Below, in pieces: positions 3,691-64,000 of a DNA stretch of 64,000 nt. Each line of letters begins with the position of its first letter. Positions within the stretch are counted from its first letter, which is position 1. The DNA is from Selaginella tamariscina (lineage: Eukaryota > Streptophyta > Lycopodiopsida > Selaginellales > Selaginellaceae): assembly GCA_003024785.1 (NCBI GenBank), contig PUQB01000284.1, positions 62,001 to 126,000 on the forward strand, given 5' to 3'. The translations under genes were made by a program, and so were the position numbers. The notes under the pieces are model-generated. The model made no database searches, had not been told where the DNA came from, and worked only from the letters and a program-made list of their open reading frames with translations.

Positions 3691-3696
3691 TCAAAG

Positions 3697-3780: not shown

Positions 3781-3783
3781 GTA

Positions 3784-6259: not shown

Positions 6260-6540
6260 TTTAAAATTTAAAAGAGAATGTAAGAGAGTGAATCTTTATA
6301 AATATATTTAAATTTGTTTATAATACTTACTTGCAAACAGCACTGAAGGCGCCATGCTTTCCTATAAACAATAGTGCATGCCGAGAAAGAACCAGATCTG
6401 AATTTGAGTGAGAAATTAAATGCATTTTTAAATTTACATGTCAGACCGATAATACTTATGTCAGAAATTCGAAATTTTTGAAATAACAGAAAAGAAAATT
6501 TAAGATGAGTTGAAACAAATAACCGACAGTCTGACATATG
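6260..6540 (-). pseudogene. 5' exon region of transposase-like gene, copy B (minus strand)
   Basis: Reverse complement of 62410-62770. On the minus strand an open frame from 6537 reaches '...ACTIVYRKAWRLQCCLQ' and then a strong donor, CAA|GTAAGT, at about 6330. The 62.7-kb copy has the same donor after 'CTIVYRKARCLQCCLQ'. The downstream exon is absent: the intron is cut at 6245, where the neighbouring element's end begins. Function is inferred only from continuity with the gene at 47693-50440. Confidence 0.45.
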
Positions 6541-7440: not shown

Positions 7441-8464
7441 TTGTTTTGCACACATATATAAACACAATCATAAATTTATATATACACGTGCACACACATT
7501 ATAAGCATTTACAGAGACACATATGCACACACATGCACATTGCCCTAAACCAAACTTGAGAAATTATATGTTGCTTCTTTATTGAAAAACATCATGTTCA
7601 ACGCATATATGATTTATATGTACTCAGTCTGTGTGTATGTAACACATTGAATTTACACATGTAATATATATGTATGTCTGTGTGTATACACGTGTGTATG
7701 TATATATGTGTACTAATATATGCAATGTGTACGATTTTCATTTGTTAACACTTTATCTCTTCTCTCATACATACACAGTGTCACCATGCATAATCCCTTC
7801 TCTCATACATACACACTATGCATGATCATGATCCATAATATGTAGCCTGTCTCTCTCTCATACATACACCATGCATGATCCATAATATGTACTGATGTTA
7901 CAATATTATGTAATATGTATAATATATCTGTGTATAACACTCACTCCTCTCATACATAAACACCATGCATGATCCATCCTAACCCTAAACCCTATGTAAC
8001 ACATTGAATTTACACATGTAATATAATGTATGTATGTGTGTATACACTTGTGTATGTATATGTGTGTACTAATATATGCAATGTGTATGAATTTAATTTG
8101 TTAACACTTTTTCTTCTCTCATACATACATACCATGCATGATCCATATTAATATGTACTGTCTCTCTTCTCTCAAACATACACACCATGCATGATCCATA
8201 ATATGTATTGTCACTCTTCTTTCATACATACACACTATGCATGATTCTGTACTCTGTCTCTCTAATATTAATATGTACTAATACGTATGTATGTTTATGT
8301 GTATAATATTATATGTGTATATATGTATCGCTGCACGTGAAACTTTAACACTCTCATGGACACACACATGTTAAACCCCATGATTTTTATTCTTGGGGTG
8401 TATGTGATACACCCACGCACACGCACACGCACACGCTGATAATATAATGAAAGAATATTCGTGT
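7441..8464. repeat. Type I inter-gene spacer, copy B
   Basis: Reverse complement of about 60570-61560: repeated 'catacatacacaccatgcatgatccataatatgtac' modules, 'tgttgcttctttattgaaaaacat', and CA/GT tracts. In the intact copy this lies between the divergent genes. It is cut at 8464 by the chromovirus array. The corresponding ParB-methyltransferase 3' end resumes only at 26218, so the 5' part of the gene is missing. Confidence 0.7.
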
Positions 8465-26002: not shown

Positions 26003-26217
26003 TCCTGCTCCTGGATCCCGTCCTGCTCGTCTTGTTCCTGGATCCTGTCCTGCGCCTTCCTGTCTTGCTCCCGGATCCTATCCTGATCCTGTCTTGCTCC
26101 TGGATCCGTCCTGTTCCTGTTCCTAGTTCCTGTCCTGCTTTCAGTCCAGCTCTTGAGTCAAGCCTTCATGTCCTTGGAATCCTGTTCTCCTCCTGGTTCC
26201 TGGATCGTGGCTTGACA
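26003..26217 (+). repeat. Inverted LTR fragment capping the array
   Basis: Reverse complement of the first 215 or so bp of the chromovirus LTR. It ends ...TGGTTCCTGGATCGTGGCTTGACA, the mirror of the array's left end at 8465, so the whole array begins and ends with the same sequence in inverted orientation. It is most simply the end of a separate element inserted the other way. Confidence 0.88.
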
Positions 26218-26383
26218 GATATTAGACCGAAATTTATCTCGAGGAGTACAGAACATTCACACACTCCATTACCCATGGAAACATCAACAAAGATAGGAAG
26301 ATCTTGAACCATCTCACAAGCGGCTAGACCTTCTTCGCCTCACTCAGAAGGTAATAGCGAAGAAGAATTGTTAATGAGTTCTT
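26218..26383 (+). pseudogene. 3' end of ParB-methyltransferase-like gene, copy B
   Basis: Begins 'gatattagaccgaaatttatctcgaggag', matching the reverse complement of 55080-55215. There the encoded C-terminus reads ILDRKLSRGVQN...RYEDLEPSHKR...SEEELL. Everything upstream of this point is missing, replaced by the chromovirus array. The ending is rich in Ser, Glu and His, like a disordered tail. Confidence 0.75.
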
Positions 26384-26584
26384 AGAGTGACGAATAGTTG
26401 TAAATGAGTGTAACATAAGGCATTTTTGTATATTTTTTTATATTTGTACAGAAAATAAATTCTCAAGGATTAATGAAGCTTTTAGTTCAAACATGGGTCA
26501 CACATTAACAAGGTAAATAATATACCTTGATAATTTAAGGTCAGCTAATTATCATTTTGCAGATGTAATGAAACAGTTGAGAAC
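26384..26584 (+). repeat. Conserved spacer between methyltransferase and HAD genes, copy B
   Basis: Same sequence as 5262-5420 and the reverse complement of 54870-55040, ending in a pyrimidine/AG 'atcattttgcag' directly before the HAD leader. It may be an intron or an intergenic spacer. Confidence 0.65.
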
Positions 26585-27837
26585 ATGGATTTTCAGCATT
26601 GCCATGAGGTAAGAGAGGGGTTTGGCGAAATTTCTTGTGCCACATGTCAGAATGACAGAGTTCATGCAGGAAATGGATAATAATGCAGCTCAAAACATCG
26701 TTACCATGGGGGCCACTTCAGTTTTTTCATCATCATTTTATTGGCTTCAATTCCGAAATCAATTTCTTCAGCGCATGCAATATCTGAATCTTGTAAGGAT
26801 GATGTACAATTAAATGATAAGGGATAGGCAACGAATAGTGTCAACAGATAAATGTGAAAGGGAGCAAACAAGTGATTTGCAAAGTATTCAAGAGGCAACG
26901 CTATCCATGTTACTCATGGCCATATTGTGTTGTTGGATGTCAATGGTGTTCTGCTTCATCGACAAAGGCCCGAGGATAGGAAAAAAGAAATCAAACAAGG
27001 AGATTTCATTCCTTGTCATGGTAAATTTCGATATGATATTATTTTTCGTCCAGGGTTGGATCGTCTCTTTCAAAAGCTTAAGGAGATGGGTGCGCTTGTG
27101 GGGATTTGGTCATGCATGCAGATTCACAACTTAACACCGCTGTTGAATTTGCTTAAGAAACATTGTAGTGTTGCAGAAGAGGTGATTCGTAAAGATTGGA
27201 TTTTTGACCAGCGAATGTGTTATAAACCTCTCGAATTTCACAATATAAGAAAGGAAAGCAAGCCATACTTTTCAAGAATGAAAGATAATTGGGCTCATGG
27301 GGAGATCAGTCGCTTAAGGATAATGAAGAATGCACATATCTTAGTGGTAGACGACTCTCCTCAGAAGGCTATGCTCAACCAAAACATTGCTTGTATTCAT
27401 CCAATCACTTTCGATCCATATTCTGATACTGATATCATGGATGAGCTAGTGAATACTTGGATACGTGCCTCAGAAAGAAGAATCTCGAAAACTTTTGTGA
27501 GCAGTATCCACCGTATCAAACATTTCCTGAAGCTTTTCTTTCTCGTGATTTTGAATTTTATAAAATGAAGGATAGCAACCGGGCGCTTTATAATATTATT
27601 CTTAAGGAACGTCATTTTTAGATGAGCCTTTATGCAGACCTGGTCTTATTACATCTTATGTATTAACAAGGATGGCAACTCCCAATTGCATTCGTGAGAG
27701 TGTTAAGGTGGTGGCAACAACATCAAATATTGACCAAAATGATTTGATTAATCCGGAGAGTGATGATTTAGACAAAATGAGGAAGATTTCTCTGTATGTT
27801 AGGAAGAAAGTATTTATAAATAAATTAACATGTTGAT
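26585..27837 (+). pseudogene. FCP1/NIF-type HAD phosphatase-like gene, copy B
   Basis: The open core 26927-27568 holds the HAD motif I in IVLLDVNGVLL (about 26926-26960), a FRPGLDRLFQKLKEMG segment with the motif II region IWSCM, and motif III VVDDSPQKAM (about 27349-27375). In FCP1/SCP phosphatases motif I is DxDx(T/V). Here the second Asp is Asn, as in some plant HAD-like proteins, so classic acid-base catalysis is doubtful. The N-terminal frame (MTEFMQEMDNNAAQ...) and the C-terminal frames (NYLDTCLRKKN...; RPGLITSYVLTRMA...INKLTC) are separated by frame changes shared with copy C. Probable role in the element unknown. Confidence 0.75.
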
Positions 27838-28103
27838 AAGAAATGATTTCATTTGTAATTATGTTTGATAGTATTTCTTAATTATTGTAAACTATTTTTA
27901 GAATAATATGAATATTCTAAGATATTTTAGGAATATTCCTTACTAAGTAAGGTTATTGAAGGATTAATTAATTAATTAATATTTAAGGCTTAATTACATA
28001 TTAATTAAATGATTAATTAATAATTAAAACTTAAGTATTAATTAGTAATTTATTTTATATTCCCATTTTCACGTATCATGCCCACTTTAGTTACAATGTG
28101 CAT
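27838..28103 (+). repeat. AT-rich 3' end of type I copy B
   Basis: 'attaattaattaat' runs followed by 'cccattttcacgtatcatgcccactttagttacaatgtgcat', identical to 41760-42030. The match stops at 28103, taken as the element end. Confidence 0.6.
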
Positions 28104-41540: not shown

Positions 41541-42030
41541 TATAGAGTCATATACTAGACCTGGTCTTATTACATCTTATATATTAACAAGGATGGCAAC
41601 TTCCAATTGCATTCGTGAGAGTGTAAGGTGGTGGCAACAACATCAAGATATTGACCAAAATGATTCGATTAATTCGGAGAGTGATGATTTAGACAAAATG
41701 AGGAGATTTCTCTGTATGGTTAGGAAGAAAGTATTTATAAATAAATTAACATGTTGATAAGGAAATGATTTCATTTGTAATTATGTTTGATAGTATTTCT
41801 TAATTATTGTAAACTATTTTTAAAATAATATGAATATTCTAAGATATTTTAGGAATATTCCTTACTAAGTAAGGTTATTGAAGGATTAATTAATTAATTA
41901 ATTAATATTTAAGGCTTAATTACATATTAATTAAATGATTAATTAATAATTAAAACTTAAGTATTAATTAGTAATTTATTTTATATTCCCATTTTCACGT
42001 ATCATGCCCACTTTAGTTACAATGTGCATT
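41541..42030 (+). pseudogene. 3' fragment of HAD gene and element end, copy D
   Basis: Near-identical to 27637-28103: coding tail RPGLITSYILTRMA...DDLDKMRR...KKVFINKLTC, then the AT-rich end. The rest of the HAD gene is absent. A one-base difference at the LDKMRR/LDKMRK junction shifts a short segment. Confidence 0.75.
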
Positions 42031-43895: not shown

Positions 43896-45300
43896 GTGTA
43901 TCACATACAAAAAAAAATATGGATCATGCATGGGTTTGACATATGTGTGTATGTGAGAGTTTTAAGCTATCATATACACACAATACATACATACACACAC
44001 ATATACACATAGATATATATACATAATACATATGTGAATGTGTCACGTACACACAATACATATTATAGATCATGCATGGGTTTAGCAGTGTGTGTGTGGG
44101 TGAGAGAGAGAGAGAGAGTGTTCAAAGATTAATTTGACACACATTACATACATTAGTACACATATACATACACACACATGTATACATACATACATATATA
44201 CATACATGTGTGAATGTGTCACATACACACAATACATATGGATCATACATGGGTTTAACATGATGCTTTTGAGAAAGAAGCAACAAAGCCCTTGAGCTGG
44301 GTCTGATGGCCCAATGATGATCATCCCCAATTAATCATCTATCTCGATATGCCAGATGCGCAGTATGTCAATATTATGTAAATCGATATTAAAAATGTGT
44401 GAACACTATCAACACTAGACATATGATGATTATCACATATTATTAATTGTTTGATTTATGATTTAAATCCTTTACTGTAGCCCTTAACCCTATACACAAA
44501 GCCCTACACCTGCTAGTGTATATATATGCATCATCAATAAATCATGCTTAAACCCTGGTTTAGGGTTTAAACCCAAACCAGTATTTTATTATTAAATTTT
44601 AATATCTATATAAAAAGTTTATTATTCATATAAAAATGCATAAGAAAACACGAATAAAGAATTTTTTTTAGTCAAGTAGCTATTAATAGCGCAAATCATT
44701 TAGTGATTTATAAATTATTTTTAAAAAATACAAATTATAATTTGCCCATACATTAAAATTGTTTAAATGACAAAATGATATTAAAACATATGATAATGCA
44801 ATTGTAGCACATATATATAATTTATAATGTATAATCTTTAAAACATAAAAATTAAATCCATGCACATTTGTACAAATATTTAATATATATATACTCTAGA
44901 CCCTAAACATATAGTGTGTGTGTATATATACACTGAGCTTGTTTAGAGTTTAAACCCTAAACACTAAGCCCCACAATCGGATGTTTTTAATGCGTGTGTT
45001 GTTTGCATGTGAAAGTCTATAAATGTTTTGTGTGTGTATGTAAGCCCCGATACACCCTAGCCCATAATAAATGCTTGGTTTGGGGTTTAAACCCTAAACC
45101 CTAAACACAAAGCTAGATGCTAGACCCTAAACATTATTTATATTGTGGCACACTCATGGACATGTGTTTTGTGTGTGTTTATGTGTAATGCTCTTGTGTT
45201 CATATGTGTGTATGTATATGTAAATTTTATTGTGTCTACATATGTGTGTAAAAGAAACATTGAAATAAAGTGAAATAAAAATAATATACACACTATGAAC
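43896..45300. repeat. Type I inter-gene spacer, copy E
   Basis: Matches 1-1430 and 60600-61560: CA/GT tracts, 'gagaaagaagcaacaaag', teloboxes ('aaaccctggtttagggtttaaaccc' at about 44553-44577, 'ggtttaaaccctaaaccctaaac' at 45080-45103), and AT-rich blocks. Here it leads rightward into the transposase-like gene. Confidence 0.7.
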
Positions 45301-45960
45301 ATATTTAAATGATACATATCTATTATATAGTTATATAAGCTCAGTGTATATATATACACACATATAATATGATATAGCTCAGTGTATATATATACACACA
45401 TAAATATGATATAGCTCAGTGTATATATATACACACACACTATATGTTAGGGTCTAGAGTATATATACATTTGCTTAGGGTCTTGTATTTGTATTATATA
45501 TGCATTTGCTTAGGGTCTTGTATTTGTATTATATATGCATTTGCATGCACATATATATATTTATATAAATAGAGTATATATACACACTATGAACATATTT
45601 AAATGATACATATCTATTATATAGTTATATATAGCTCAGTGTATATATATACACACATATAATATGATATAGCTCAGTGTATATATATACACACACACTA
45701 TATGTTTAGGTCTAGAGTATATATATATTAAATATTTGTACAAATGTGCATGGATTTATAACTATATATAACTATATATTATAACTATATATAACTATAT
45801 AATAGATATAATAGCTCAGATATATATCATATTATCTATTATATAGTTATATATAGTTATAATATAATTCATAATAAGGTTTAATAGTAGAATATTCTTA
45901 GAATAATAAGAAAATAATTCCATTATAAACAAATGTAGAATAATGACTTGAATTTACATT
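45300..45960. repeat. Rearranged local repeats with inverted copies
   Basis: Blocks 45285-45460 and 45575-45720 are direct duplicates ('tagctcagtgtatatatatacacacac'). Segments 45716-45760 and 45340-45460 are reverse complements of 44855-44940. Palindromic 'tatatatagttatatata' runs follow. Consistent with fold-back or template-switching rearrangement. Confidence 0.7.
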
Positions 45961-46604
45961 GGAATTGTGTACAATATTATCAAAGAGTTAGTCACTTGTG
46001 TTAACTCATCTTAAATTTCTTTATTATATTAAAATGTCAAAAATTGGAAATTCTAACATAAATATTATCAATCTGACATAAATATTGTCAATCTGACATG
46101 TAAATTTAAAAATGCTTTCAATTTCCCATTTAAATTCAATTTGTATTTCTCATAAGGGTTTCTTCATTTGTATCATTTTCTTTCTTCAGATCTTCTCTTT
46201 ACTCCCTATGCTGTTTACAAATAAGTATTATAAGGCAAATTTAAAACTACTTGTAAAGATGCATTCTTAAAATCAAAATTTAAGATTTACATAAACAAAT
46301 TTATATTCTCTCTCTAAATGCATATTACTTCTAAGATTTAGGAATTCATTAGGATTGCACTAAAATTCGTTAGGATTTATCCATTCACACATCCCCTTTA
46401 CTTAGAATTCTCAGTCAAGATCTCAGAGAGTTCTCAAATCAAGCATGAGAATCTATCCCTATACATAATTATATGTCATTGCACATGCATATAAATTAAG
46501 CACTCTTGATTCAAATTTTATTGCATCTTGCATAAATAGATATTCCATTGTGCATAAATAGATAAACAAATGTAGAATAATTACTCAAATTTTATATAAT
46601 TATA
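45961..46604 (+). pseudogene. Transposase-like 5' leader, first copy (E)
   Basis: 46000-46260 matches 62450-62760 ('aactcatcttaaatttctt', 'acatgtaaatttaaaaatgc', 'gctgtttacaaataagtattataa'). The exon is decayed. Present twice, this one and 46836-47110, on either side of a chromovirus fragment. Confidence 0.5.
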
Positions 46605-46835
46605 CAACTTGAATCCCTTTATGTGTTGTCCCCAAAAGAGATGTTCATGGAATATTTCCTTCTTGATTTCATGGATAGCACTTCGTCAAGACCTTGTAGG
46701 GATTGTGCATGCATTGGCTCCAATGACTTTTGATGATCTACACTTTGTAGCGTTTCACTCGTGCAAGTTCATGACTACGGAGATCAACTATGAAATCCAT
46801 GACAATGAATTAATTGTTAATGTTAAATGCATTAA
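46605..46835 (+). pseudogene. Chromovirus RNase H fragment
   Basis: The translation includes LHFVAFHSCKF and [16 protein letters not shown], matching the tandem elements' [26 protein letters not shown] segment. No LTRs or other domains. It is a short captured piece between two copies of the transposase leader. Confidence 0.75.
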
Positions 46836-47285
46836 ATAACTCATCTTAAATTTCTTTATCATATTAAAATGTCAGAAATTTAAAATAAGTATTGTCAGTT
46901 TGACATGTAAATTTAAAAATGCTTTTAATTTTTCATTTAAATCCAAATTTGTATTTCTCACAAAGGTTTTTCATTTGTATCATTTTCTTTCTTCAGGTCT
47001 TCTCCTTCTTGGATAGTGTTTGCATCAGAAGCGACACTAAATTAAGTGCTATCATTTACAAAAAAACATGACACCCCCTATGCTGTTTACAATTAAGTAT
47101 TATAAACAAATTTAAAATTAATAAAAACTCACTTTCTTACACTCTCTCTCAAATTGAAATTTAGGGTTTATGTAAACAAAATTATATTACTACTTCTAAG
47201 GTTTAGGAATCCATTAGGGATTTATACATCCCCTTTACTTAAAATTCTCTGTTAATCAAAATCTCAGAGAGTTCTTGATGGTTTC
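46836..47285 (+). pseudogene. Transposase-like 5' leader, second copy (E)
   Basis: Matches 62480-62780, including the exon end 'gctgtttacaa' and 'aagtattataaacaaatttaaa' after it. The donor GTAAGT has decayed to TTAAGT. Confidence 0.5.
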
Positions 47286-47570
47286 AAAGGATTAATCTTG
47301 CCACCCTTCCCCACCTTCTAGAATGGTGGGCGTGTTTAATCCTGCCACAACTCTTTGAGACGGGGAAGGGGTGGCAATTAATCCAGCTAATGCTTCCCCG
47401 CCTCCTAGAATGGTCGACATAATTAATCCCATCCATAACTCTTTGAGATGGGGAACTTGTAGCAGAATTAATTTCAGAGAGTTGTAGGCAGGATTTATCC
47501 TGCTCACCATTTTAGAAGCGGGGAAGCATTGGCATGGTTAATCCCACCACCATTTATCTTAATCAAGCAT
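47286..47570. repeat. Decayed type I palindrome array, copy E
   Basis: Aligns with 62930-63200. The palindromes are mutated ('ggattaatcttgccacc', 'gtgtttaatcctgccac', 'ggcaattaatccagc'). Same intron position as the intact array at 62870-63725, so array and gene share a long history. Confidence 0.75.
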
Positions 47571-47692
47571 GGGAATTTATCTCTATATATAATTATATGT
47601 CATTGCACATGCATATAAATTAAGCACCCTTGATTCATATTTTATTACATATTGCATAAGTAGATATTATAAATAACACAAATATTTATGTG

Positions 47693-50440
47693 CAGGTCAA
47701 TATGTTTAATATTGGAGATAAAGTATATCTTCTCTGGAACAATGAAATAATTGGCACTAGAACCAAAAGTTTGAGATGATAATGCATCATGTTATAATAT
47801 TGCCCAAGGGTCTTATGTGTACATTTAGTGAACACCATTTACAAGCATGTTGAGGTTCCTGAAATGGAATTTGAAAAGGGTTCTTCTATATTGTGGAATG
47901 TGAATGAAGTCAAGGCTGATATAAAAAATGCATAGTCACAAACAAAAATTAATACAAGTTCACAAGATGATGGCTTACATGATTCTTTCTCCATGAGACC
48001 GAGGTTGAAAGGGGCATCATCTCAATTGTCAATCCAATGAAAGCTATATTATAAAGACACTAGGGGCATACTTTGTGGGTGTAGAGTTGTGACAGAGGTT
48101 TCACCAAATGGCACATTACATCCTAGATTTCTTGTGAGGTGGCAAACATCTAAACTAAAACAGCCAGATGGTTCAACATATCCAAAGTTGAATTACAATA
48201 GTAACAACCTGGAAGGCAACCATGTTTGAAGAGGTTCCTTGCATTAGTCCTATAATAAGAAAAAGGAGATTCATGTGCTGCAAATTGACTCCAACAAGTT
48301 CTGACAAGAGGGTCAAGATGGATCCCACATCTTTGGCAAGCATTGCCAGCGTCTCCACAATTGATTGTTGTAAGAAGAAGTGTTGTCAAATGGCAAATTG
48401 GAATAAAATTACCCAATGTAGACATGTCTTTTGTAAGCTCACTCACAAGCAAAGGCATGAGTTTATATATGCTGCACTAATTGGGTGTATTGATAGAATG
48501 GCCTTGGACACAAGTTATCAAAGTTATACGGGATACTAAAGACCATGTTATACCATCGAAGGGACGAGTGGTTGAATGGAGTATGCACCTCAGCACATGG
48601 GAACACTCACTTGGTCAAAACCTTCTCTCACATTATGGCAGCCATAGAGATACTAAAGAAGTTTGTGGAGGCAAATGTAGATAGGATGCCTCACAAATGC
48701 TATATCACAAATGCAGGGTCAGGAAAAATCTCAAGGTTTTGCCTTCAAATACACTTCATTAAAGTTGTGTGAACATGTAAACAAGTGCCTCAATTTGATG
48801 GGGCTCCAAACAATTTGCACCGATACCTTCAACAACATATGGAATACTCAATTTAAGGATGTAGAGATTGCAAAACATTCTAGCTTTTCCAAGTGTGACA
48901 CTTGTATATCACTGAAGGCTACAGAGGCTTGTGCAAAAACCTTGGTGGAGATCACTGTCATTCAAAAGAAGATGGAGGCCCACATGATTGCACAACAAAC
49001 TTGCCAATCTTAGTACTATGCACACCGCATACTTTCTGTGTCATACCCATTAGAATACATGTGCTTGATTCACAACAAGATGGATCATTCAAAGATTAGC
49101 ATTCCAAAACTAGTTGTAACATTAAAGTGTTTTGGAAATGTCATGAAACTTCCGGTTTCATTGATAAACACATGGACACGATTGTGAATCATATAGACAC
49201 TTTTCACTTCCACACTCATCTAGCGACTCCAATTTCACTATTGGGTCGTTAGCCATGTGTTTTAAAAACCTTGAAGCCCACTCACAAACAAGTCCTATGG
49301 GTGATCTCAAAGTGAAGAAACAACACTTTCAACCTTTACACAATGCTCTCATGAACACGTTTGCACTTGAGGCTACTTGGGAATGTGAGAAGCACTGTCA
49401 ACATCATGCACAAAAAATAGATGGCCATGTTCTAGTTCAATAGAGAGATCTGGCTCAGATAAGGTACAAGTGTTGTTAACATCAAATAAGTTTCCTCATC
49501 ATTTGTTTTTATAAATGGACAATTGTGCAAGCAAGAACAAAAATAGGTAAATCATTTCAGTTAAGGGTTTTTTAAGTTCATACTTACTTTTATTTTCTAA
49601 ATACGTACTAGCATACTTGTTAATGTTTGTTGCCAAATGTGTGTTTAAACAATCATGCTCAGTTTCCTTATGATTGGTCACACTCGTGAGAATATTGATG
49701 CATTTTTCAGCAAGGTCTCAACTCTACAAAACGAACAAGTGCACTTACCTTACCACATATGATGGATCTTTTTGAAAATTGCATTTTAAAAAAAAATTGT
49801 GCTTTGCTTATGATTAAGGTGCCAGACTTCAAAAAGTTTCTTAAGAAGTATATCAAAGAAGGGAGCAATTCTTTAACTGATCATCTTGTGCCACTATAGT
49901 TCTTCTTCTCCACAAGAGATGGTATACCTATTATGTAATACAAGTTATGACCATCATAATAGGAATGGTTACTCAAAAAGGGCTTAATGCTCTTCAAAGG
50001 TGGATAGTATGAAAAGCCACTTCTCTTAGAATGACAACCAAACCATATTCCATTGAGTGCACAATTCAAGGAACAAAAGCTTATTATTAATGGCATCAAA
50101 AAGTATGTGACATGGTTCAAACATCAATGCCAAAGAATTTCGATAAGGCGATTGGTTACTCAATACTATATAAGCATGTGGTCGAATATTGAGAGACTGT
50201 TGTTCAAGAGTTAAAAGGGCATGTTGTCACAATTACAAAACTCTTTTTGGCCTAAAACAAGGTGGTGGGAGGAGATTGAAACCACATTAATGAATGCAGA
50301 TGACACAAACCCTACACTTTATTGGACAAAGTACTAAAAATCTAAATCATACTTTGATTGTTACAAAGATTTTCAAAAATTAATGATCGTACTCATTACT
50401 TTAGATGTGTCATATAAATAATTTATTTGGATGGGTTAAA
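47693..50440 (+). pseudogene. Transposase-like gene of type I element, copy E (broken)
   Basis: Exon opens after an AG at 47692: VNMFNIGDKVYLLWNNEIIG, then YKHVEVPEMEFEKGSSILWN. Later blocks include RDEWLNGVCTSAHGNTH (48560), FKDVEIAKHSSFSKCDTC (48855-48908), IHNKMDHSKISIPKL (about 49070-49115) and VPDFKKFLKKYIKEGSNSL (49820-49880). The K-C-D-x-C motif and the 'HDKMDHSK.xxP' block recall a widespread but poorly characterised transposase-like family of seed-free plants and animals. I call it so from memory of the pattern only. More than ten stops or shifts. Confidence 0.5.
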
Positions 50441-51110
50441 TTATCGACACACCTGAAATCATTAAAAAAAAAAAAAAAAAAACAATATGATAAAGATTGC
50501 ATGGTTCAAACCGTAAAAAAAAACAACATGAGAAAGAGAGCAAAAGGTACAATAGATACCTAAGGAAAACATGGTCTCCCAATTAAAAAGACCAGCATGC
50601 TTTATAAATGTTAAATCCATTCGATATGAGTGGATGTTAAGAAATGTTGATAAAGTCACAGAAAACAAAACTGTAAAAAAAATGCATATATTTTGAAGTT
50701 TAAAACAATTACAAAATATAGTATATTTAATATTCATAATTATATATTAAATATTAATATTTTAATAACAACATAAATAATTATATAATGTACCTCTCAT
50801 GCTCTTTAATAACTTTTATATTAGGCCCATATAATCTTTTTCAAGCTTAAAGAGTTAATAATGAAATGCATATGTGTACGTCAAACACCTTCCTAATGGC
50901 ATGTAAGTCTTCTTCTATTAAAGAGTCAATTATAAAAATAAATGTTCTAAAGAATATTTTGTCTTTAAACATACATTTTAAAGAATATTCTTTCCTTGAA
51001 TATATATTATTCTAGAGAATATTTTTTAATATTAAAAAATGTTAATTAAATAATTATTGGGACTATATACATACCCATTTTAATTACTTATAATGCCTTA
51101 GTATCATAAA
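50441..51110. repeat. AT-rich 3' tail of type I copy E
   Basis: Poly-A run at 50463-50480, then AT-rich sequence matching 5640-6245 ('aagaatatt' clusters) and the terminal 'cccattttaattacttataatg' near 51075. Confidence 0.55.
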
Positions 51111-53656: not shown

Positions 53657-53805
53657 TCCATACTATAATTGGTGTTAGTAGATCACAAGAAGTTATTCAA
53701 GTAATTATATAGCATAATTAGAGGCTAAACCAATTCTTTGACATTGGGTTGTCTTATTGGGGAAGAAAGCAACAACACTATCATTATAAATCATGCATAA
53801 AGGCT

Positions 53806-54850
53806 CATCTAAAAATGACGTTCCTTAAGAATAATATTATAAAGCGCCCGGTTGCTATCCTTCATTTTATAAAATTCAAAATCACGAGAAAGAAAAGCTT
53901 CAGGAAATGTTTGATACGGTGGATACTGCTCACAAAAATTTTCGAGATTCTTCTTTCTGAGGCACGTATCCAAGTAATTCACTAGCTCATCCATATATCG
54001 TATCAGAATATGGATCGAAAGTGATTGGATGAATACAAGCAATGTTTTGGTTGAGCATAGCCTTCTGAGGAGAGTCGTCTACTACTAAGATATGTGCATT
54101 CTTCATTATCCTTAAGCGACTGATCTCCCCATGAGTCCCAATTATTCTTTCATTCTTGAAGAAGTATGGCTTGCTTTCCTTTCTTATATTGTGAAATTCG
54201 AGAGGTTTATAACATATTCGCTGGTCCAATCTTTACGAATCACCTCTTCTGCAACACTACAATGTTTCTTAAGCAAATTCAACAGCGGTGTTAAGTTATG
54301 AATCTGCATGCATGACCAAATCCCCACAAGCGCACCCATCTCCTTAAGCTTTTGAAAGAGACGATCCAACCCTGGACGAAAAATAATATCATATCGAAAT
54401 TTACCATGACAAGGAATGAAATCTCCTTGTTTGATTTCTTTTTTCCTATCCTCGGGCCTTTGTCGATGAAGCAGAACACCATTGACATCCAACAACACAA
54501 TATGGCCATGAGTAACATGGATAGCGTTGCCTCTTGAATACTTTGCAAATCACTTGTTTGCTCCCTTTCACATTTATCCGTTGCACTATCTCGTTGCCTA
54601 TCCCTTCATCATTTAATTGTACATCATCCTTACAAGATTCAGATATTGCATGCGCTGAAGAAATTGATTTCGGAACTGAAGCCAATAAAAATGATGATGA
54701 AAAAACTGAAGTGGCCCCCATGGTAACGATGTTTTGAGCTGCATTATTATCCATTTCCTGCATGAACTCTGTCATTCTGACATGTGGCACAAGAAATTGT
54801 CGCCAAACCCCTCTCTTACCTCATGCCAATGCTGAAAATCCATGTTCTCA
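53806..54850 (-). pseudogene. FCP1/NIF-type HAD phosphatase-like gene, copy C
   Basis: Minus-strand copy nearly identical to 26585-27621. N-terminal frame MTEFMQEMDNNAAQNIV with a Ser-rich stretch (54446-54790). HAD core with LLDVNGVLLHRQRPEDRKKE (54184-54498). HILVVDDSPQKAM motif III in the next frame (53987-54229). C-terminal FCEQYPPYQTFPEAFLSRDF (53809-54042). Copies B and C share the frame change before motif I. Copy C has further one-base losses near 54200 and 54000. Follows the ParB-methyltransferase gene by about 200 bp on the same strand. Confidence 0.78.
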
Positions 54851-55046
54851 ATGTTTCATTACATCTGCAAAATGATAATTAGCTGACCTTAAAATTATCA
54901 AGGTATATTATTTACCTTGTTAATGTGTGACCCATGTTTGAACTAAAAGCTTCATTAATCCTTGAGAATTTATTTTCTGTACAAATATAAACGAAATATA
55001 CAAAAATGCCTTATGTTACACTCATTTACAACTATTCGTCACTCTA
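54851..55046 (-). repeat. Conserved spacer between methyltransferase and HAD genes, copy C
   Basis: Reverse complement of 26384-26584. It keeps an AG-ending pyrimidine stretch beside the HAD leader. Confidence 0.65.
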
Positions 55047-58000
55047 AGAACTCATTAACAATTCTTCTTCGCTATTACCTTCTGAGTGAGGCGAAGAAGG
55101 TCTAAGCCGCTTGTGAGATGGTTCAAGATCTTCGTATCTTCTATTGATGTTTCCATGGGTAATGGAGTGTGCAATGTTCTGTACTCCTCGAGATAACTTC
55201 CGGTCTAATATCTGATTGAAGTTCGTCCTCAGACTCCGACATTGAACCAGATTCGTCTTCAGAGCTATCGCACTTATCGGAGGGAACTTTCTCAAATACT
55301 CCTTATGGATTCGTTGGGGTAGTCAGTTGAGAACCTATCTATCCACTTGTTCAGGTCCTCAACCATGGTCTTATCCTTTTCAACGGCAAAACACATGTAT
55401 CCGAAGGTAACACTCCTTCAAGACGGACCCCCTAGTGCAGTAGTCAAAAACCCACGCATCACTGTGAGGACCCCTGATCAAGTTGACGATGCTCCGTGCC
55501 GCTTGACTTGTATGTTTGGATAACGTACATTGCCGAATACGTCACTCTCAGCTATCGGTGTATCGGATGGAGGTTCAGGGCCGTTGGAGTGCAAACAGAT
55601 GCCTGGCCAGTCATTTGGAAGTTTGAAATTGTTTGGCGCATTCCTAACAACCAACAACCGAATCAATGCACTTCGGATCAGCATCATTCATATAAAATCC
55701 TGTCCAACGATGTTTATTCCTCTTGGCAAAGGCGAAGGCAAAGGTATCGGTGACATGAGCAAGAATCAAGAAATAAATACCTGAAAACGTAGATATCAGT
55801 CAAGAGTGCAAGTATGAATTCAATAATAAATACCTTCTTTGTACATGCTTGCACGGCTAAGTTTCTCCACCAAATCCTCTAGTGTCCTGTCTGTCGAAGG
55901 ATTTTTTGACACCCGCCGATCCATCACGAACAATTGAAACGGTTTCCTACAAGCAGTGATGGTACCCCATAAAGTCTCCGAATCCAACAACAAACATCTG
56001 TAGGGCTTGTCGTGATTCGTAGCATCCTCCTTTATAAGGTTCAACTCGGTTCTCCGCTGCTGAAGGACTGCCATAAGAGAAGGCGTCATCGCAATGTTCT
56101 CTTTTTTGGCGTTGGCGTGCAATAGATTCTTGCCCAGATCTTCCGATTGATTCACCCATTCGACAAGCATATCATCATTTGTCACATGCAAATATTTGCT
56201 GACCTCTTCGTATGTTGAAGCCGAGGTCCAACCCAGTTTGTGGCAGTGTATTCCCAACCACTCCTTGAAGTGCCTGACCGTCTTCAACTCCATTGCCTTG
56301 AGATGAAAAGGAGAGGTGGGGCTGCTGTTGTTAATCTGTAATTTGCCATCAATCACCAAATCAGCCAAGACTTCCATCTCCTCCATCGTTGTTCCATTTA
56401 AAGGCTTCAACCATGTGAGCTTGAAATCGTTGTCTACATCCTTTATAGATTGAACAGACTTAGCCTTCGGCGTCTTACTGGGTTTCTTTGCAGACTTCTC
56501 TCCCTTCACTTGTCTGCTTCTTCTTCAGTGTTCCTTTTGCAAAGGATTCCATAATCCCCAACCATTTGCAAAGATCCTATCCTCGGGACAAGAAATCAAC
56601 ATCATCAAAAAGGATGTTTCCTTCCCGCCCACCTGGGCAAAATCAACTGCTACAATTTCTTCAACTCTCTGAAAAAAAAAGATTAATATACCGGCGAGAT
56701 AAATCCCGCCCAAACAATTTGCTTACCCGGTAGTCCGCAGATTGTGTATTCCCTGCGGTAGCTCTTTGTGGTCGCTGAAGAGATTCCCACACGGCTCGCG
56801 TGTGTTTGAACTTCTCCCATATTTTGCTGTTGTAGTGGTTGGTGTCTGCAGCGTCCCATTCCGCCGATAACTTATGGTACTGCTCGATTGTGAGATTCGG
56901 CTTCGCTAAAAACGCCGATCTTTTCGTCAGCTTCTCACGGGTATGCTCGGAAAGTTTTGTTGCCATCGTTCCTTTGTTGTGTTCGTCGAGAAGTCGTTGG
57001 GCTGCCGTTATTGTGTGCTGGCCACTAATGATGTAGTACTTATGATTTTTATTCTCCGTCTGAACCTTCCTCATTTGTTCTGTTGTGATCCACACTTTGT
57101 CAGCGCCTTTGTTTCTCTCGTAGTATGCGCACAAAACAGCATTATGTGGAACGGTGTAAGAATTGTCGTCCTTCATCTTCTCCATGAGCTCAGCTACACG
57201 TTCCTGGTTGAGTGGCCTGTAATTGAAGTTTGGGTTGACGCTGCAATACTTAACCCTACACTCGTAAATCCTATCATCCAACATCATTTCCTTGTGGCTT
57301 ATTGCAGCATGGGATGCCACAGGTGCAGCTGACAAAACGATGAGATTTTCTTCTACGATCCGAATCAACATGTGTGATCCCCGATTGATGCTGTTCTAAT
57401 GTTCTCGGCACACTCTTCCAGCTCCCGAAATTTTCTAAGCAAATTGAACGTGATCTGTAAAGAACCTGAGACCAAGCCACCCTCTCAATCTCCTTATGAT
57501 GTCGCTGTGTTCTTCTTCAATGTGAAGAGGGACGATTGCTCCACTTGTGGATTTTCTGTATTGTGAAGCAATATCTCTGAGAATACACCTACTCGATGAG
57601 TCTGAAGATCTTCGAAGTAGACATCCAGTTGGATCCCCTCCATAGATGGGCTTTCGTTGAGTTGAAGAAGAACTCCACGGTCAACATCATTAGTGAACAC
57701 GTGAACGTCATTATCCACAAGTCGACAAACCACCCGAAATTAATGTTGTAACTGGCGACCTCTGGATCCGAGAACGTGACATTGGATGGAACAAGGCATA
57801 TGTGTCGAGCATCGTTCAATCTGGGTTCAGCATGCTTTCGGATGCTTGACTAGCACACCCACTTTCCATTGTTTTGCTTGTCCATGCGATGTGACAGAGG
57901 TTAGTTTGACAGCAACCATGGTTGTTCCAATGCGCTTCCCGTTTAGTTTGAAATATGGCCAAGTTGATTCCAGAATCCCCCTGCCCATCTCTTCTCCTGC

Positions 58001-58119
58001 TCTCGTCTTTAATGTCACCTCAATTCCACATCTGAATACAAAAATGATTAGTTCAAGCACATATCCGAGTATAACAGATTTTATTTTAATTCTTACCCAG
58101 AATTTGACGACGACTCCAT
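55047..58119 (-). pseudogene. ParB-like/DNA-methyltransferase-like gene, type I copy C (fullest copy)
   Basis: Starts ATG at 58119-58117 (MESSSNS). Exons are separated by short introns with GT/AG ends at 58032-58096, 56669-56726 and 55781-55833. Order: an N-terminal region of unknown fold (about 57500-58031, two frameshifts); a ParB-like domain (NYRPLNQERVAELMEKM, then HKYYIISGQHTITAAQ; 56990-57230); VEEIVAVDFAQVGGKETSF (56600-56668); a central part to 55834 with LLLDSETLWGTI at the motif IV position; then FDYCTRGSVLKECYLRIHV and FAVEKDKTMVEDL (55330-55470), which fit motifs I and II. IV before I is the permuted class order. The catalytic D-P-P-Y/W and F-x-G-x-G are not intact. C-terminal tail Ser/Glu-rich. 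Confidence 0.6.
56693..56710. repeat. Palindrome variant inside a 58-bp intron
   Basis: GGCGAGATAAATCCCGCC lies within the intron 56669-56726. It is the array palindrome with two changes. The homologous intron of copy A (4322-4387) has a decayed version in the same place. Confidence 0.75.
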
Positions 58120-58263
58120 ACTAATGACTCGATCTCCTTGTTTAATTAAATCGTCCTTCTGCAAAATAATACACTATGAATACAAATCATATAAAAACGC
58201 ACACACACTTGTATAAACCCGAATATACAAAAATAATACACAGAGAGAAGTGGACGGAATTAA

Positions 58264-58346
58264 CTGTCCAAAGCTCACATTTGTGCTAGTGCAAAAGAAA
58301 GATAACATTTCGTTTTAGAACCACCACAAATGTGAGCTCTGGACAG
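58264..58346. repeat. Inverted repeat upstream of ParB-methyltransferase start
   Basis: Arms 58264-58285 and 58325-58346 are reverse complements at 21 of 22 positions (core 'ctcacatttgtg') with a 39-bp loop. It lies 145-230 bp upstream of the ATG at 58119. Could form a hairpin or be a dyad operator. Confidence 0.75.
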
Positions 58347-58435
58347 TTTTACATAGATTCCTAGCTTTTACTCGAAATATTATGATAAGATGATAAAAGT
58401 AAATAAAATGAGATATGCAACTTATATATACTAAT

Positions 58436-59456
58436 ACACATATATATTCACATGGAAGGTGCGGCGGGATTAATCTCGCCACCCCTTCAATGCCTCCTGA
58501 AAGAGTGGGCGGGATTAATCTCGCCACCTTTCTGGAGGCCTTGAACGGGAGTGCGGAATTAATCTTGCCACCCTTCTCGGTCTCAGAGAGAACTTGGCAG
58601 GATTTATTTGGCACACCCCTTCAGTGACTCCAGAAAGGAGGCGGGATTAATCTCGCCCACCATGTAAGGGATGGTGAAATGAATCTTGCCACCCTTCCCA
58701 GTCCTCCATTGGTATGTTGTAAACCTTCTACGTCTCAGACAGAAACGTTTGGGATTGGTCCGACTCACCAATGGAGAAAAAAGGAAGGGTGGCGGGATTC
58801 ATCCCTCCAACAGGCATTGAAGGCTCGGCGGGATTAATCCCGCCCCAGGCCCTTCAGGCAGGCCTTGCGGCGGATTAATCCCGCCCGTTCCCGCACGGAA
58901 TGCGGCGCGGATTAATCCCCGCCCAGGCCCTTCACTCAGGCCTAGGCGGGGATTAATCCCGCCGGACGCCAATGCCCTGCGAATCGGGGGATTAATCCCC
59001 GCCTAGGCCCTTTAGGCAGGCCTTTGGCGGCGAAAATCCCGCCCGATTCCGCGCAGGCATGTGTACACTGCAGGATTAATCTCGCCGCCTAGGCCCTTCA
59101 CTCGAGCCCTAGGCGGCGGGATTAATCCCGCCGGATGCCAATGCCCTGTGCGGAATCTGGTGGAATTAATCCCGCCACCTAGGCCCTTCAGACAGGCCAA
59201 TGGCGGCGGGATAAATCCCGCCGGATTCCGCGCAAGGCATGCATAGGCGGCAAGGATTAATCCCGCTGCTCATGAGGCTAACCGAATAACTTGCCTAAAA
59301 TGGCGGCGGGATTAATCCCGCCACTCATGAGGCAACCGAATAGCCTGCCTGAAAGGCGGCGGGATTAATCCCGCTACCGAGGGTCTAACCATATAGCGGC
59401 GGGATTAATCCCGCCGCCGAGGGGCTAACCATATAGCGGCAGAATTAATCCCGCCA

Positions 59457-59460
<4 letters not shown>
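58436..59460. repeat. Type I palindrome array upstream of copy C
   Basis: About 20 copies of GGCGGGATTAATCCCGCC and variants over 1 kb, spaced about 40-50 bp. Linkers include 'ctaggcccttcaggcaggcc' and its inverse, themselves near-palindromic. Perfect copies include those at about 58826, 59118, 59302 and 59397. Confidence 0.92.
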
Positions 59461-59510
<50 letters not shown>

Positions 59511-60420
59511 GTATATGTGTGTGTAGGAGAGTGCGTGTGTGTGCCAGAGATAGACAAATCAAATAAAATTATACTAATACACACACATATGTATATGTAT
59601 ATTGTATGTGTGTGCTAAATAAATTAAATTATACAGATACACACACACACATATATATGTATATGTATATTGTATGTGGTGTGCTAAATAAATTAAATTA
59701 TACAGATACACACACACACACATATATATGTATATGTATAGGTATATTTATGTATATGTATATGTATATACAGGAGTGTGTGGGTGTGTGCAAGAGATAA
59801 ATAAATAAATAAATTATACAGATACTGGTACACATAATATATGTATGTGTATATGTACATAGGTATATATATATATGTGTGGTGTGTGTGTGTGTGTGTG
59901 TATCGTGTGTATGTGTGTGTGAAATAAATAAAATCATACAAATAAACAAACACACACACACACATATATATACAGGAGTGTGTGTGTGTGTGTGCGAGAG
60001 ATACAATTAACAAATCAATAAAATTATACAAATACACACACACACACATATATATATATATCTGTGTGTGGTGTGTGTGTGTGTGTGTGTGTATAGGGGT
60101 GTGCGTGTGTGTGCGAGAAATAGATAAATAAATAGAATTATACAGGAGTGTGCGTGCGTGTGCAAGAGATAGAATTAATAAATTAATATAATTATACATA
60201 TACACAAACACAAACACACACACACACACACACACATATGTGTGTGTGTGTGTGTATATGTATACGAGTGTGCGTGTGTGTGAGAGAGATAGAGATCTAA
60301 ATTATATTATTAAGATACACACACATATAAATATATATGTGAATAAAATAAATAAATAAACTCAGGAGTGTGCATGTGAGAGAGAGATCTCACTTGTGTG
60401 AGAGAGAGAAGGAGATTTCA
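59455..60420. repeat. CA/GT and TA compound microsatellite tract, copy C
   Basis: Modules of 'cacacacacac', 'atatatatgtatatgtat', 'gtgtgtgtgtg' and 'agataaataaataaattatacag', the reverse-strand counterpart of 1800-3690. Long Thr/His/Tyr-rich translations are artefacts. Confidence 0.9.
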
Positions 60421-60600
60421 CAGCCGCCGCCTCTGCCGCCTTACTTCTTAAAACCCTAGGAATATACCAAAACCCTAAAAGGAATAGAATATATATTAAC
60501 CCTAATCAAATATTCTTTCTAAGAATATACTTAAACCCTAAAAAGAATAAACTATAGATTCGCCCTAAACGAATATTCTTTCATTATATTATCAGCGTGT
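60420..60600. promoter_or_regulatory. Probable shared upstream region of divergent type I genes
   Basis: 'ccgccgcctctgccgcc' followed by three telobox repeats ('aaaccctaggaatata', 'aaaccctaaaaggaat', 'aaccctaatcaaat'). Conserved at 1600-1690 on the other strand. Teloboxes are known promoter motifs in plants. Use as a promoter is inferred from its position between diverging genes. Confidence 0.4.
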
Positions 60601-61560
60601 ACGTGTGCGTGGGTGTATCACATACACCCCAAGAATAAAAATCATGCAGGGGTTTAACATGTGTGTGTCCATGAGAGTGTTAAAGTTTCACGTGCAGCGA
60701 TACATATATACATACATAGTATTATACACATAGACATACATACATATTAGTACATATTAATATTAAAGAGATAGAGTACAGGATCATGCATGGTGTGTAT
60801 GTATGAGAGAAGAGTGACAATACATATTATGGATCATGCATGGTGTGTATGTATGAGAGAAGAGAAAGAGTGTTAACAAATTAAATTCATACACATTGCA
60901 TATATTAGTACACACATATACATACACACGTGTATACACACATACATACATACATATTACATGTGTAAATTCAATGTGTTACATAGGGTTTAGGGTTTAG
61001 GGTTTAGGGTTAGGATGGATCATGCATGGTGTTTATGTATGAGAAGAGTGAGTGTTATACACAGATATACATTATACATATTACATAACATTGTAACATC
61101 AGTACATATTATGGATCATGCATGGTGTGTATGTATGAGAGAAGAGACAGGCTACATATTATGGATCATGATCATGCATGGTGTGTATGTATTAGAGAAG
61201 GGATTATGCATGGTGACACTGTGTATGTATGAGAGAAGAGATAAAGTGTTAACAAATGAAAATCGTACACATTGCATATATTAGTACACATATATACATA
61301 CACACGTGTATACACACAGACATACATATATATTACATGTGTAAATTCAATGTGTTACATACATACAATTAAGTACATATATATCATACATGCATTGAAC
61401 ATGATGTTTTCAATAAAGAAGCAACATATAATTTCTCAAGTTTGGTTTAGGACAATGTGCATGTGTGTGCATATGTGTCTCTGTAAATGCTTCTAATGTG
61501 TGTGCACGTGTATATATAAATTTATGATTGTGTTTATATATGTGTGCAAAACACACATCA
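60600..61560. repeat. Type I inter-gene spacer, copy C
   Basis: Tandem modules 'tatggatcatgcatggtgtgtatgtatgagagaagag', repeated at least five times with variation, then GT/CA tracts. Reverse complement of 7440-8464. Confidence 0.8.
60984..61014. repeat. Interstitial telomere-like repeat
   Basis: Four consecutive TTTAGGG-type units ('tagggtttagggtttaggg...'), the plant telomere repeat. At 7977-7995 the corresponding site has about two units. Confidence 0.85.
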
Positions 61561-62409
61561 AATAATTAAGAAAATAATATTAATAAACTATGAACATATT
61601 TTAAATTTACATAATAATATATGATTTTATCTAATATATAGCCATATATAGTTTTAATAAATATATTAATTTAATATTGATAATAAGGTTTAACATTAGA
61701 ATATTCTTGAAATAATAAGAAATTAATTGAGAAAATCCCATTAATATATACAAATGTAGATCAAGTACTGAAATAATTAACTAAATTAATTATGATAATC
61801 ATGCTTAATATTGAAATATTCTTGGAATAATAAGAAAATAATAAAGAATATCCCATTAATATAAAGAAGATTAATTACTCAAGTAATTAAGAAAATGATA
61901 TTAATATACACACTATGAACATATTTTAAATTATACATAATAATATATCATTTTATCTAATATATAGTCATATATAGTTTTAATAATATATATTAATTTA
62001 ATATTGATAATAAGGTTTAACATAGGAATATTCTTGAAATAATAAGAAATTAATTGAGAAAATCCCATTAATATATACAAATTAGAATAATTACTGAGAT
62101 AATTAAGAATAAGACTAATTTAATTATGATAATCAGGTTTAATATTGAAATATCTTTGAATATTAAGAAAATAATAAAGAATATCCCATTAATATTAGGA
62201 AATGTAAATTAATTACTCGAGTAATTAAGAAAATAATAATAATAAACAGACTATGAATATATTTTAAATGATACATAATAATATATCAATTTATTTATTG
62301 TATTAGTGTATATATATATATATATAATATAAACTTAATAATAAATATTGAATATTAAGAATGTAAATAATTACAAAAATTTCGTAATATTAAATAGCTT
62401 GAAGCACTT
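61561..62409. repeat. AT-rich tandem duplication, copy C
   Basis: Reverse complement of 6541-7440, units of about 320 bp. No gene visible. Confidence 0.75.
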
Positions 62410-62710
62410 GAATGACATTAAATGTAATTTTAAAACACTCATTGGAATTGGAGAGTATATATGTAGACTGTCGGTTATTTGTTTCAACTCATCTTAAATT
62501 TCTTTTCTGTTACCGACATGTAAATTTGAAAATGCATTTAATTTCCCACTCAAATTCAGATCTGGTTCTTTCTCCGCAAGGGTTTCTTCATTTCTTTATT
62601 TTTCACTCTTCAGATTTTCTTTTTTCTTCTTAGTGATAGCTCAGAGCGACATTAAATTGGGTGCACTATTGTTTATAGGAAAGCACGGTGCCTTCAGTGC
62701 TGTTTACAAG
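62410..62710 (+). CDS. 5' exon region of transposase-like gene, copy C
   Basis: Runs to '...CTIVYRKARCLQCCLQ' and a consensus donor CAA|GTAAGT at about 62709. The same exon appears, decayed, at 46200, 47080 and (inverted) 6330. The start codon is not certain: an in-frame ATG as in the 6537 copy is not obvious here. It would splice across the palindrome array to 63867. Confidence 0.4.
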
Positions 62711-62869
62711 TAAGTATTATAAACAAATTTAAATATATTTATAAAGATTCACTCTCTTACATTCTCTCTTAAATTTTAGAATTTAGGGATTTAGGAATGC
62801 ATTAGGATTACAATATATGCTATTAGGGATTTATCCCGTTTAAATATACTTTTAACTTAATATTCTCGG

Positions 62870-63725
62870 TTAGCGGGGCGGCGGGATTAATCCGGCCATT
62901 TTTTTTGCCCTTTCGAAGAGGTGGCGGGATTAATCCCGCCACCATCTCTTTGATACTATGACAGAATTAGTCCGGGCAATGCTTCTCCGCCTCTTAAAAA
63001 GAGCGGCGGGATTAATCCCGCCGATAACTTCTCAATTAATAAAGAGTTACTTGAATTTATTAAAAGAGTTTTACGGGATTAATCTCGCCAACCATTTTAG
63101 GAGGCAGAGAAGGGGTGGCGGGATTAATCTCGCCACCACTTTCCTGTTTTAAATATTTGTGGGCAGGATTCATCCCGAATCTCTTTGAAATCATAGTTTC
63201 GGAGAGAGTTGTGCGGGATTAATCCGCCGCTTATTCCCCGTCGTCAGAGTTGTGGGCGGGATTAATCCCGCCGCCTATTCTCCATCGTCAGTGTTGTGGG
63301 GGGATTAATCCCGCTCTATTCTCGTCGTCAGTGTTGTGGGCGGGATTAATCCCGCCCCTCTTCCTGTCGGAGGATGCGGCGGGATTAATCCCGCGGACTT
63401 CCTCTCGGAGGAGTCCCGGGGATTAATCCCGCCGCTCCTCCGACGAGGAAGTCCGCGGCGGGATTAATCCCGCCGCTTCCTTGTCGGAGGGAGCGGCGGG
63501 ATTAATCCCGCCGACTCCTCCGAGGGAGATCGGCGGGATTAATCCCGCCGACTTCCTCGAGAGGGAATCGGCGGCGGGATTAATCCCGCCGACTCTCCGA
63601 TGGGGTAGAGTCGCGGCGGGATTAATCCCGCCGACTCTCTCCGAAGGGGTAGAGTCGGCGGCGGGATTAATCCCGCCGACGTTCCTCGTCGGAGGGAGTC
63701 GCGGGCGGGATTAATCCCGCCCATC
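62870..63725. repeat. Type I palindrome array inside transposase-like intron, copy C
   Basis: About 19 copies in 855 bp, at least ten of them perfect GGCGGGATTAATCCCGCC. In the second half the linkers ('gactcctccgaggga', 'gactctccgatggggtagagtc') extend the dyads. Local GC content is far above the surrounding AT-rich DNA. Flanked by the donor at 62709 and the acceptor at 63866. Confidence 0.92.
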
Positions 63726-63866
63726 AGTTGTATTAATAAAGCATGAGATATTATCTTTATACATAATTATGTATTATTGCACATGCATATTATTAAGCAA
63801 CGCAGTTATGATTTCTTAGAAATATTGCATAAACAGATATCATAAATAACACAATTATTTATGTGC

Positions 63867-64000
63867 AGGACAATATATTATAATACTGGAGATAAAGTAT
63901 GTCTTCTTCGGAACAACGAGATAGTTGGCACTGGAACTGTGGAAGTTCGAGATGATAATGCATCATGTCACAATATTGCCCAAGGATCTTGTGTGTACGT
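63867..64000 (+). CDS. Second exon of transposase-like gene, copy C (runs off window)
   Basis: After 'tttatgtgcag' the sequence encodes YNTGDKVCLLRNNEIVGTG, then TVEVRDDNASCHNIAQG, homologous to 47693-47830 (NIGDKVYLLWNNEIIG). One extra base near 63875 shifts the frame relative to the copy E start. The better-preserved downstream part may lie beyond the window. Confidence 0.55.

Follow-up and report, generated by a model that had tools for sequence, protein, structure and literature searches.

Introduction

The closest described counterpart of the element treated here is Sola1-1_Ec32 of Ectocarpus, a 21.5-kb Sola1 element whose strand opposite the transposase encodes a protein of 1,104 amino acids (aa) with a ParB-like and a methyltransferase part (PMC12477816). 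Among the literature listed, this paper alone appeared relevant. In its passages dealing with the element, it is suggested that such accessory proteins might bind to the transposon encoding them and modify it, no site being named there, and a review of 2011 and a red algal genome paper are cited for ParB-methyltransferase cases in green and red algae. Here, we describe a composite element in a stretch of 64,000 nucleotides of Selaginella tamariscina (contig PUQB01000284.1; C598:62001-126000), hereafter called the window, which belongs to a genome of 300.7 Mb in 1,391 contigs. The element is ~14.9 kb long and combines genes for a HAD protein and an accessory protein with a transposase-like gene on the other strand and with arrays of an 18-bp palindrome, a feature which the first-pass annotation of this DNA did not name. 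As the favoured explanation, to which we give a probability of roughly 0.45, the element would be a giant, recently active Sola1-like DNA transposon of the cut-and-paste kind whose own accessory protein recognizes these palindromes.

The element as a mobile unit

Six 30-kb loci around near-identical copies, two of which contained masked bases, were compared (copies are named by contig or locus label: C627, C904, C529, C391, C449, L027, L032 and L010). Homology to C627 started and stopped at identical points in five of the six loci, the flanks being different, and the sixth locus (C391) was collinear over part of the copy and altered at its right end. Three copies measured from edge to edge had lengths of 14,916, 14,896 and 15,061 bp. 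Terminal inverted repeats of roughly 26 bp were found at both ends, the left one being TGCAAGTTGTAACTAAAATGGGCATGG and the right one the complement of CATGCCCACTTTAGTTACAACGTGCA. With ATGCA...TGCAT taken for the ends, the 4 bp adjoining either end were compared in 12 copies. An exact 4-bp target duplication was detected in seven copies; three needed a slip of one nucleotide according to a by-eye reading of the flanks, and in two the duplication was absent. The element possesses both terminal inverted repeats and a target duplication of fixed length, by which DDE-type transposons of this kind are recognized.

Genome-wide, the left end occurred 1,293 times at up to one mismatch, while the reversed control gave no match. 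A non-random sample of 20 left ends was picked by hand from 100 listed ones (C1 to C113, mostly larger contigs). Since 13 of them were accompanied at the expected distance by the full 1.2-kb accessory-gene piece (94.8-99.9% identity), the genes of the element co-occur; one further left end had a partial piece of the accessory gene (131 bp), three were followed by another part of the element and three by nothing of it. In copies elsewhere in the genome, the HAD and accessory genes lie opposite the transposase-like gene between the inverted repeats. The shared edges, the inverted repeats and the number of left ends establish a mobile composite unit, which agrees with the proposal of the first-pass annotation that the arrangement moves or amplifies. 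Due to the near identity of the copies, recent movement is suggested, and by extrapolation several hundred near-complete copies would account for roughly 4% of the genome.

Duplications of 4 bp, as found here, are expected of Sola1, and the element is probably Sola1-like in nature. Such target duplications are a feature of Sola elements, also shared by Ginger and Chapaev. For this reason, we suppose that the element works like a giant Sola1 element without filing it as a member of Sola1.

The transposase-like gene

In C904, two exons join into a reading of 1,023 aa without interruption, which runs opposite to the accessory and HAD genes. A divergent transposase-like gene, as proposed by the first-pass annotation, is supported. 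Its sole Pfam match at E<=1 was DUF7869 (PF25273; E=9.1e-47), an entry which states no function and whose name was found in no paper of the literature searched by text. An open first exon of 660 aa is present in C904 and a frame of 680 aa in L032, while in C627, C529, C391 and C449 this exon is broken or shorter. Because of its place in the element and motifs such as MDNCAGENKNR and GHTHEDID, we infer that the DUF7869 protein is a transposase of the RNase-H type. Transposases of DDE-type transposons have an RNase-H fold with an acidic triad.

The transposase and the accessory protein have an N-terminal module of 37 aa in common (L010:8314-9630 and L032:29-2068). The similarity had an E-value of 5e-5 in a single comparison and was matched by none of 2000 shuffles; of the six segment pairs compared, none but this one reached significance. 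The common module suggests an exchange or a duplication within the element.

The accessory protein

The accessory gene of C627 gave a continuous reading of 881 residues over three exons. It is preceded by a short first exon which, with its donor shifted by one base by hand, contributes 21 more residues, resulting in a protein of 902 aa. Exons and introns were predicted from the reading frame and GT-AG borders, which supports the introns proposed by the first-pass annotation. The protein contains YYIISGQHTITAAQRL, which is invariant in 15 aligned copies, and within it the motif ISGQHT (sequence YYIISGQHTITAA) resembles the ParB superfamily. In the ParB/GmrSD superfamily, a box of the GxxR/DGQHR type is followed by a helix.

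To describe the constraint on the gene, ratios of non-synonymous to synonymous substitution rates (dN/dS) were determined between subfamily A, represented by C627, and subfamily B, to which the window's copy belongs, after stop codons and columns in stretches of less than 60% identity had been dropped. Many of the values rest on few changes; they were 0.15-0.26 for exon 1 (six comparisons) and 0.14-0.18 for exon 2 (four comparisons). Within subfamily A, exon 1 gave 0.26-0.62 (six comparisons) and exon 3 0.09 (one), exon 2 showing no difference (two). Judged by these ratios, exon 1, the first long exon, is under purifying selection between the subfamilies. A genome search with 56661-57395 returned 5,305 candidates, the best 150 of which were scored. 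All of these had E<=2.3e-140, and in 141 of them the 244-aa exon-1 segment was free of stops.

The C-terminal part is more difficult to interpret. N6_N4 methyltransferases carry a DPPY/SPPY motif plus an FxGxG motif. The corresponding places of the accessory protein, as aligned by eye, read LLLDSETLWG and FDYCTRGSV, in which the expected catalytic motifs are unrecognizable. A permuted methyltransferase pattern devoid of these motifs may be discerned by eye in the end of exon 2 together with exon 3.

Besides the copies without an exact target duplication, several properties of the accessory protein weigh against the favoured explanation. No profile match to ParB (PF02195) or to methyltransferases (PF01555) was obtained with HMMER in Pfam, PHROGs or NCBIfam, and the methyltransferase-like exon 3, which had no Pfam match in any of 14 aligned pieces, is less constrained than the other exons (dN/dS 0.25-0.40 in four comparisons of subfamily A with B). 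The matches of 15 copies to Pfam stayed below threshold and concerned Rhomboid_N in five copies (best E=0.018) and PH_BUD3_C in four (0.029). Two queries revealed no relative among ~5.8 billion proteins, the first of them reaching only proteins of about fragment length. Both AlphaFold predictions were unusable, with predicted local distance difference test scores (pLDDT) of 30 and 35; one low-confidence model sets ISGQHT between a strand and a helix, and it is likewise unusable as a test. Further weak matches were GmrSD_N (E=0.036) and DUF6942 (E=0.35), each in one of the 15 copies. GmrSD_N is related to ParB-type domains, which is not known of the other families. Since unrelated families score as well as GmrSD_N, the weak Pfam matches do not decide the ParB identity, and those at 0.018-0.036 (Rhomboid_N, PH_BUD3_C, GmrSD_N) were judged to be due to chance. 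The same applies to a PADLOC match ('gop', E=0.004 in one of four queries), the PADLOC profiles giving nothing usable for ParB or methyltransferase. A tblastn search with the accessory protein in phages gave no match, no related locus was confirmed in viral contigs and a sequence search of the PDB returned nothing meaningful. From the fusion of a ParB-like domain with a methyltransferase proposed by the first-pass annotation, a ParB-like motif is left, while the methyltransferase could not be upheld. Of the two outcomes which that annotation had named as refuting its reading, the lack of ParB or methyltransferase similarity in profile searches occurred with HMMER, and a failure of the genes to co-occur did not.

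These results would suit an orphan transposon protein that is neither ParB nor methyltransferase, ISGQHT being a coincidence. The negative outcome with all profile libraries, the lack of a homologue in the searches named and the presence of unrelated families among the weak matches make this a substantial possibility, if one with less than an even chance. It contrasts with the published element of like layout, in which a ParB-like and a methyltransferase part are combined in one protein (PMC12477816).

The palindrome arrays

The sequence GGCGGGATTAATCCCGCC is a perfect palindrome of 18 bp with 27,128 exact copies in the genome and none in the reversed control. Five copies of the element contained 42, 44, 45, 48 and 18 sites at up to four mismatches, the lowest number stemming from a locus in which 5,000 bases are masked; shuffled sequences had no site. 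The rest of these five loci harbored 0, 12, 0, 0 and 0 sites, and the 12 outside sites lie in C529, which has further pieces of the element. For the whole window, 38 sites at up to two mismatches were counted vs none in 100 shuffles. Among the 100 genomic matches listed, all of which are on contig C1, several clusters were paired at a distance of ~3-4 kb as in the element.

Complete copies have two clusters each, of which one adjoins the first coding exon of the transposase gene and the other one is located upstream of the first coding exon of the accessory gene. In C627, 27 of 40 listed intervals measure 42-48 bp. Information content was determined for three copies of subfamily A, where each of the 18 core positions reached ~1.2-2.0 bits and the flanks at most ~0.6, and for both arrays of the window (39 sites at up to five mismatches), where the mean was 1.57 bits in the core vs 0.15 in the flanks. 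Since the core is conserved and the spacers are not, we regard the palindromes as candidate binding sites. The CpG content of the spacers, a possible trace of methylation, was ambiguous.

A binding partner other than the accessory protein is conceivable. En/Spm elements possess subterminal binding sites, and in a similar way the palindrome might be bound by the transposase or by a host factor while the accessory protein does something else. The position of the arrays, each next to the first coding exon of one gene, is compatible with this, and one 164-aa open reading frame (ORF) of the transposase gene matched the TNP1/En-Spm profile weakly (E=0.05). On the other hand, this match did not recur at E<=1 when the whole 1,023-aa reading was compared, and the arrays are internal rather than subterminal (in C627, at ~3.8-4.5 and 8.2-9.7 kb as counted from the left end). 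We hold such a partner to be unlikely.

It is quite unlikely that the arrays are passive, satellite-like repeats which expanded inside the transposon and are bound by no protein. Tandem expansion is evident, and the number of units varies from 18, in the partly masked locus, to 48 in the five copies. Moreover, both paired arm positions were changed 15 times among 62 distinct site variants, the number expected under independence being ~15. Nevertheless, the 18-bp palindrome alone is conserved between near-random spacers in both subfamilies, and a lone site has been kept in the same intron of the accessory gene in both of them. Symmetry was preserved in 12 of the 15 double arm changes, although with a transition bias the proportion expected by chance could exceed one third.

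A possible mode of action

For the favoured explanation, recognition of the palindromes by the element's own accessory protein, the following course can be imagined. The DUF7869 transposase would act on the terminal inverted repeats and thereby create the 4-bp duplications. The accessory protein, ParB-like at motif level and with an uncertain methyltransferase-like C-terminal part, would recognize the GGCGGGATTAATCCCGCC arrays, and its binding beside both first coding exons could mark or regulate its own element. The 37-aa module might couple the transposase and the accessory protein, and the HAD protein may be a binding module. To take the accessory protein as the palindrome binder is the most economical guess, and marking by methylation is a weaker guess still. 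As an extension, the transposon could mark itself: in the manner of ParB at parS, a ParB-like protein would clamp on or spread from an internal, centromere-like array of ~40-50 palindromes and label the element's DNA chemically or structurally, an altered methyltransferase fold serving as the effector, and the transposase or the silencing machinery would thereby distinguish the copies. We consider this extension unlikely. Regardless of it, the arrays represent a concrete candidate site of the kind not named in the passages on the Ectocarpus element. Tens of palindromes per element lie next to an accessory gene that evolves under purifying selection, and the family has nearly identical copies.

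With its size of ~15 kb, its terminal inverted repeats and its several genes, the element might be taken for an integrated virus, for instance a polinton-like one. This is highly improbable, because only NIF and DUF7869 passed the cut-offs when 21 ORF or gene queries were compared with Pfam (no capsid, polymerase or integrase family) and the target duplications are 4 bp long.

The HAD gene

The HAD gene is located on the strand of the accessory gene, divergent from the transposase-like gene, and its frame is broken in several copies. The FCP1-like assignment was confirmed by the ORF at 26876-27568, which reached 44 bits with Pfam NIF (PF03031), the cut-off being 21.8. HAD phosphatases of the NIF/FCP1 type have the catalytic motif DxDx(T/V). 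In all in-frame tblastn alignments of the stretch with the first catalytic motif, this motif read DVNGV, with Asn at the place of the second Asp. Due to this exchange, classic phosphatase chemistry is doubtful, and the protein may serve as a module for binding instead of a phosphatase.

Copies and other features of the window

Self-comparison of the window and blastn of the complete copy C904 onto it revealed that the four places at which the first-pass annotation had seen one recurring arrangement do share one element, though they differ in completeness (Table 1). Only the copy at 53.8-64 kb is nearly complete. Its identity to C904 (blastn) was 93.5% in a stretch of 5.4 kb and 92.2% in one of 6.3 kb, but only ~68% in the repeat-rich centre. 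The others are fragments or patchwork: the piece at 26.2-28.1 kb contains nothing beyond the end with the HAD gene and the right terminus, and the region at 1-8.4 kb is a rearranged mosaic of element pieces.

Table 1. Pieces of the element and their parts in the window (strand: + or -; a point where none applies).
Feature	Position	Strand	Basis and remarks
Main copy, subfamily B, nearly complete	53794..64000	-	Element coordinate ~14426 back to ~3500; broken at 53794
Left terminus of the main copy	L027:3494, beyond the window		Terminus identified in sequence
FCP1/NIF-like HAD gene, frame broken	53862..54549	-	Pfam NIF E=1.4e-7 for 54184-54549; tblastn pieces
Accessory gene, exon 3, with stops and shifts	55310..55778	-	tblastn of C627 exon 3
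Accessory gene, exon 2	55835..56668	-	tblastn, 89% amino-acid identity to C627; dN/dS 0.14 vs subfamily A
Lone palindrome, two mismatches, intron between exons 1 and 2	56693..56710	.	C627 counterpart at 19647, same intron
Accessory gene, exon 1, with ISGQHT motif	56727..58030	-	tblastn; open 56727 to 57395, broken further upstream
Palindrome array, accessory-gene side	58463..59455	.	13 sites at <=2 mismatches; 0 in 100 shuffles
Palindrome array, transposase side	62880..63721	.	15 sites at <=2 mismatches, 11 exact
DUF7869 gene, first coding exon, running into L027	63870..64000	+	Start context as in the C904 1,023-aa reading; L027 ORFs match transposase
Right end of another copy with HAD gene (ORF 26876-27568) and right terminal inverted repeat	26216..28102	+	95.4% to C904; NIF E=2.5e-11
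Right-end fragment with right terminal inverted repeat	41557..42028	+	95.8% to C904
Old half with transposase gene (47479-50759) and degraded left end	43896..51087	-	80.9% to C904 in 3.4 kb, 68-80% in the remaining pieces
Old palindrome array (2605-3775) and decayed accessory gene (3783-5425)	2605..5425	+	C904 mapping; palindrome search
Left end, left terminal inverted repeat at 6248	5466..6248	-	90% to C904
Internal region of a rearranged copy	6250..8462	+	88% over 1.3 kb, rest ~68%

The start of the fragment at 41557-42028 coincides exactly, at element coordinate 14426, with the breakpoint of the main copy. An inversion joining the two points was dropped as an explanation, the flanks being without a shared duplication. 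Both palindrome arrays of the main copy are separated by a long CA/TG and TA microsatellite (59460-60310), a diverged form of which is central in C904, and a run of four TTTAGGG-type units at 60984-61011 hints at a plant-type host, as do the introns and the genome size. Between two element pieces, a retrotransposon-like block (8465-26216; Ty3/gypsy by reading of its ORFs) repeats every ~5.5-5.7 kb, near 8465, 14001, 19710 and 25444; in the self-comparison, pairs of its units were mostly 84-97% identical, one partial pair 69%. A 49-bp tandem repeat of ~3.9 units (29292-29480) is located outside the stretches matching the element.

Comparison with known systems

With bacterial ParB-parS systems, the element shares a protein that is ParB-like at motif level and clustered palindromes on the same mobile DNA. 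The bacterial parS site has 16 bp and as a rule occurs in few copies, whereas at least 40 sites of 18 bp were present in four of the five copies studied here. Neither a ParA in the element nor a helix-turn-helix profile match was seen. The transposase-like reading resembles the DUF7869 proteins (PF25273), which it matches at E=9e-47.

EnSpm elements produce 3-bp duplications and have CACTA ends, in contrast to the 4-bp duplications and ATGCA ends of the element described here. What connects it to the giant EnSpm elements of red algae, as these are cited in PMC12477816, is that both are giant transposons with accessory genes; for similar ParB-methyltransferase proteins, PMC12477816 refers to the same red algal paper.

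For Sola1-1_Ec32, the passages of PMC12477816 on this element mention no HAD gene, which is present here, and the string 'palindrom' does not occur in the main text of the paper. The Ectocarpus element is also larger, with 21.5 kb against ~14.9 kb. A similar layout, with a ParB-methyltransferase gene on the opposite strand, is nevertheless already published with it (PMC12477816), and the layout which the two elements have in common is that of a giant DNA transposon carrying an accessory gene opposite the transposase.

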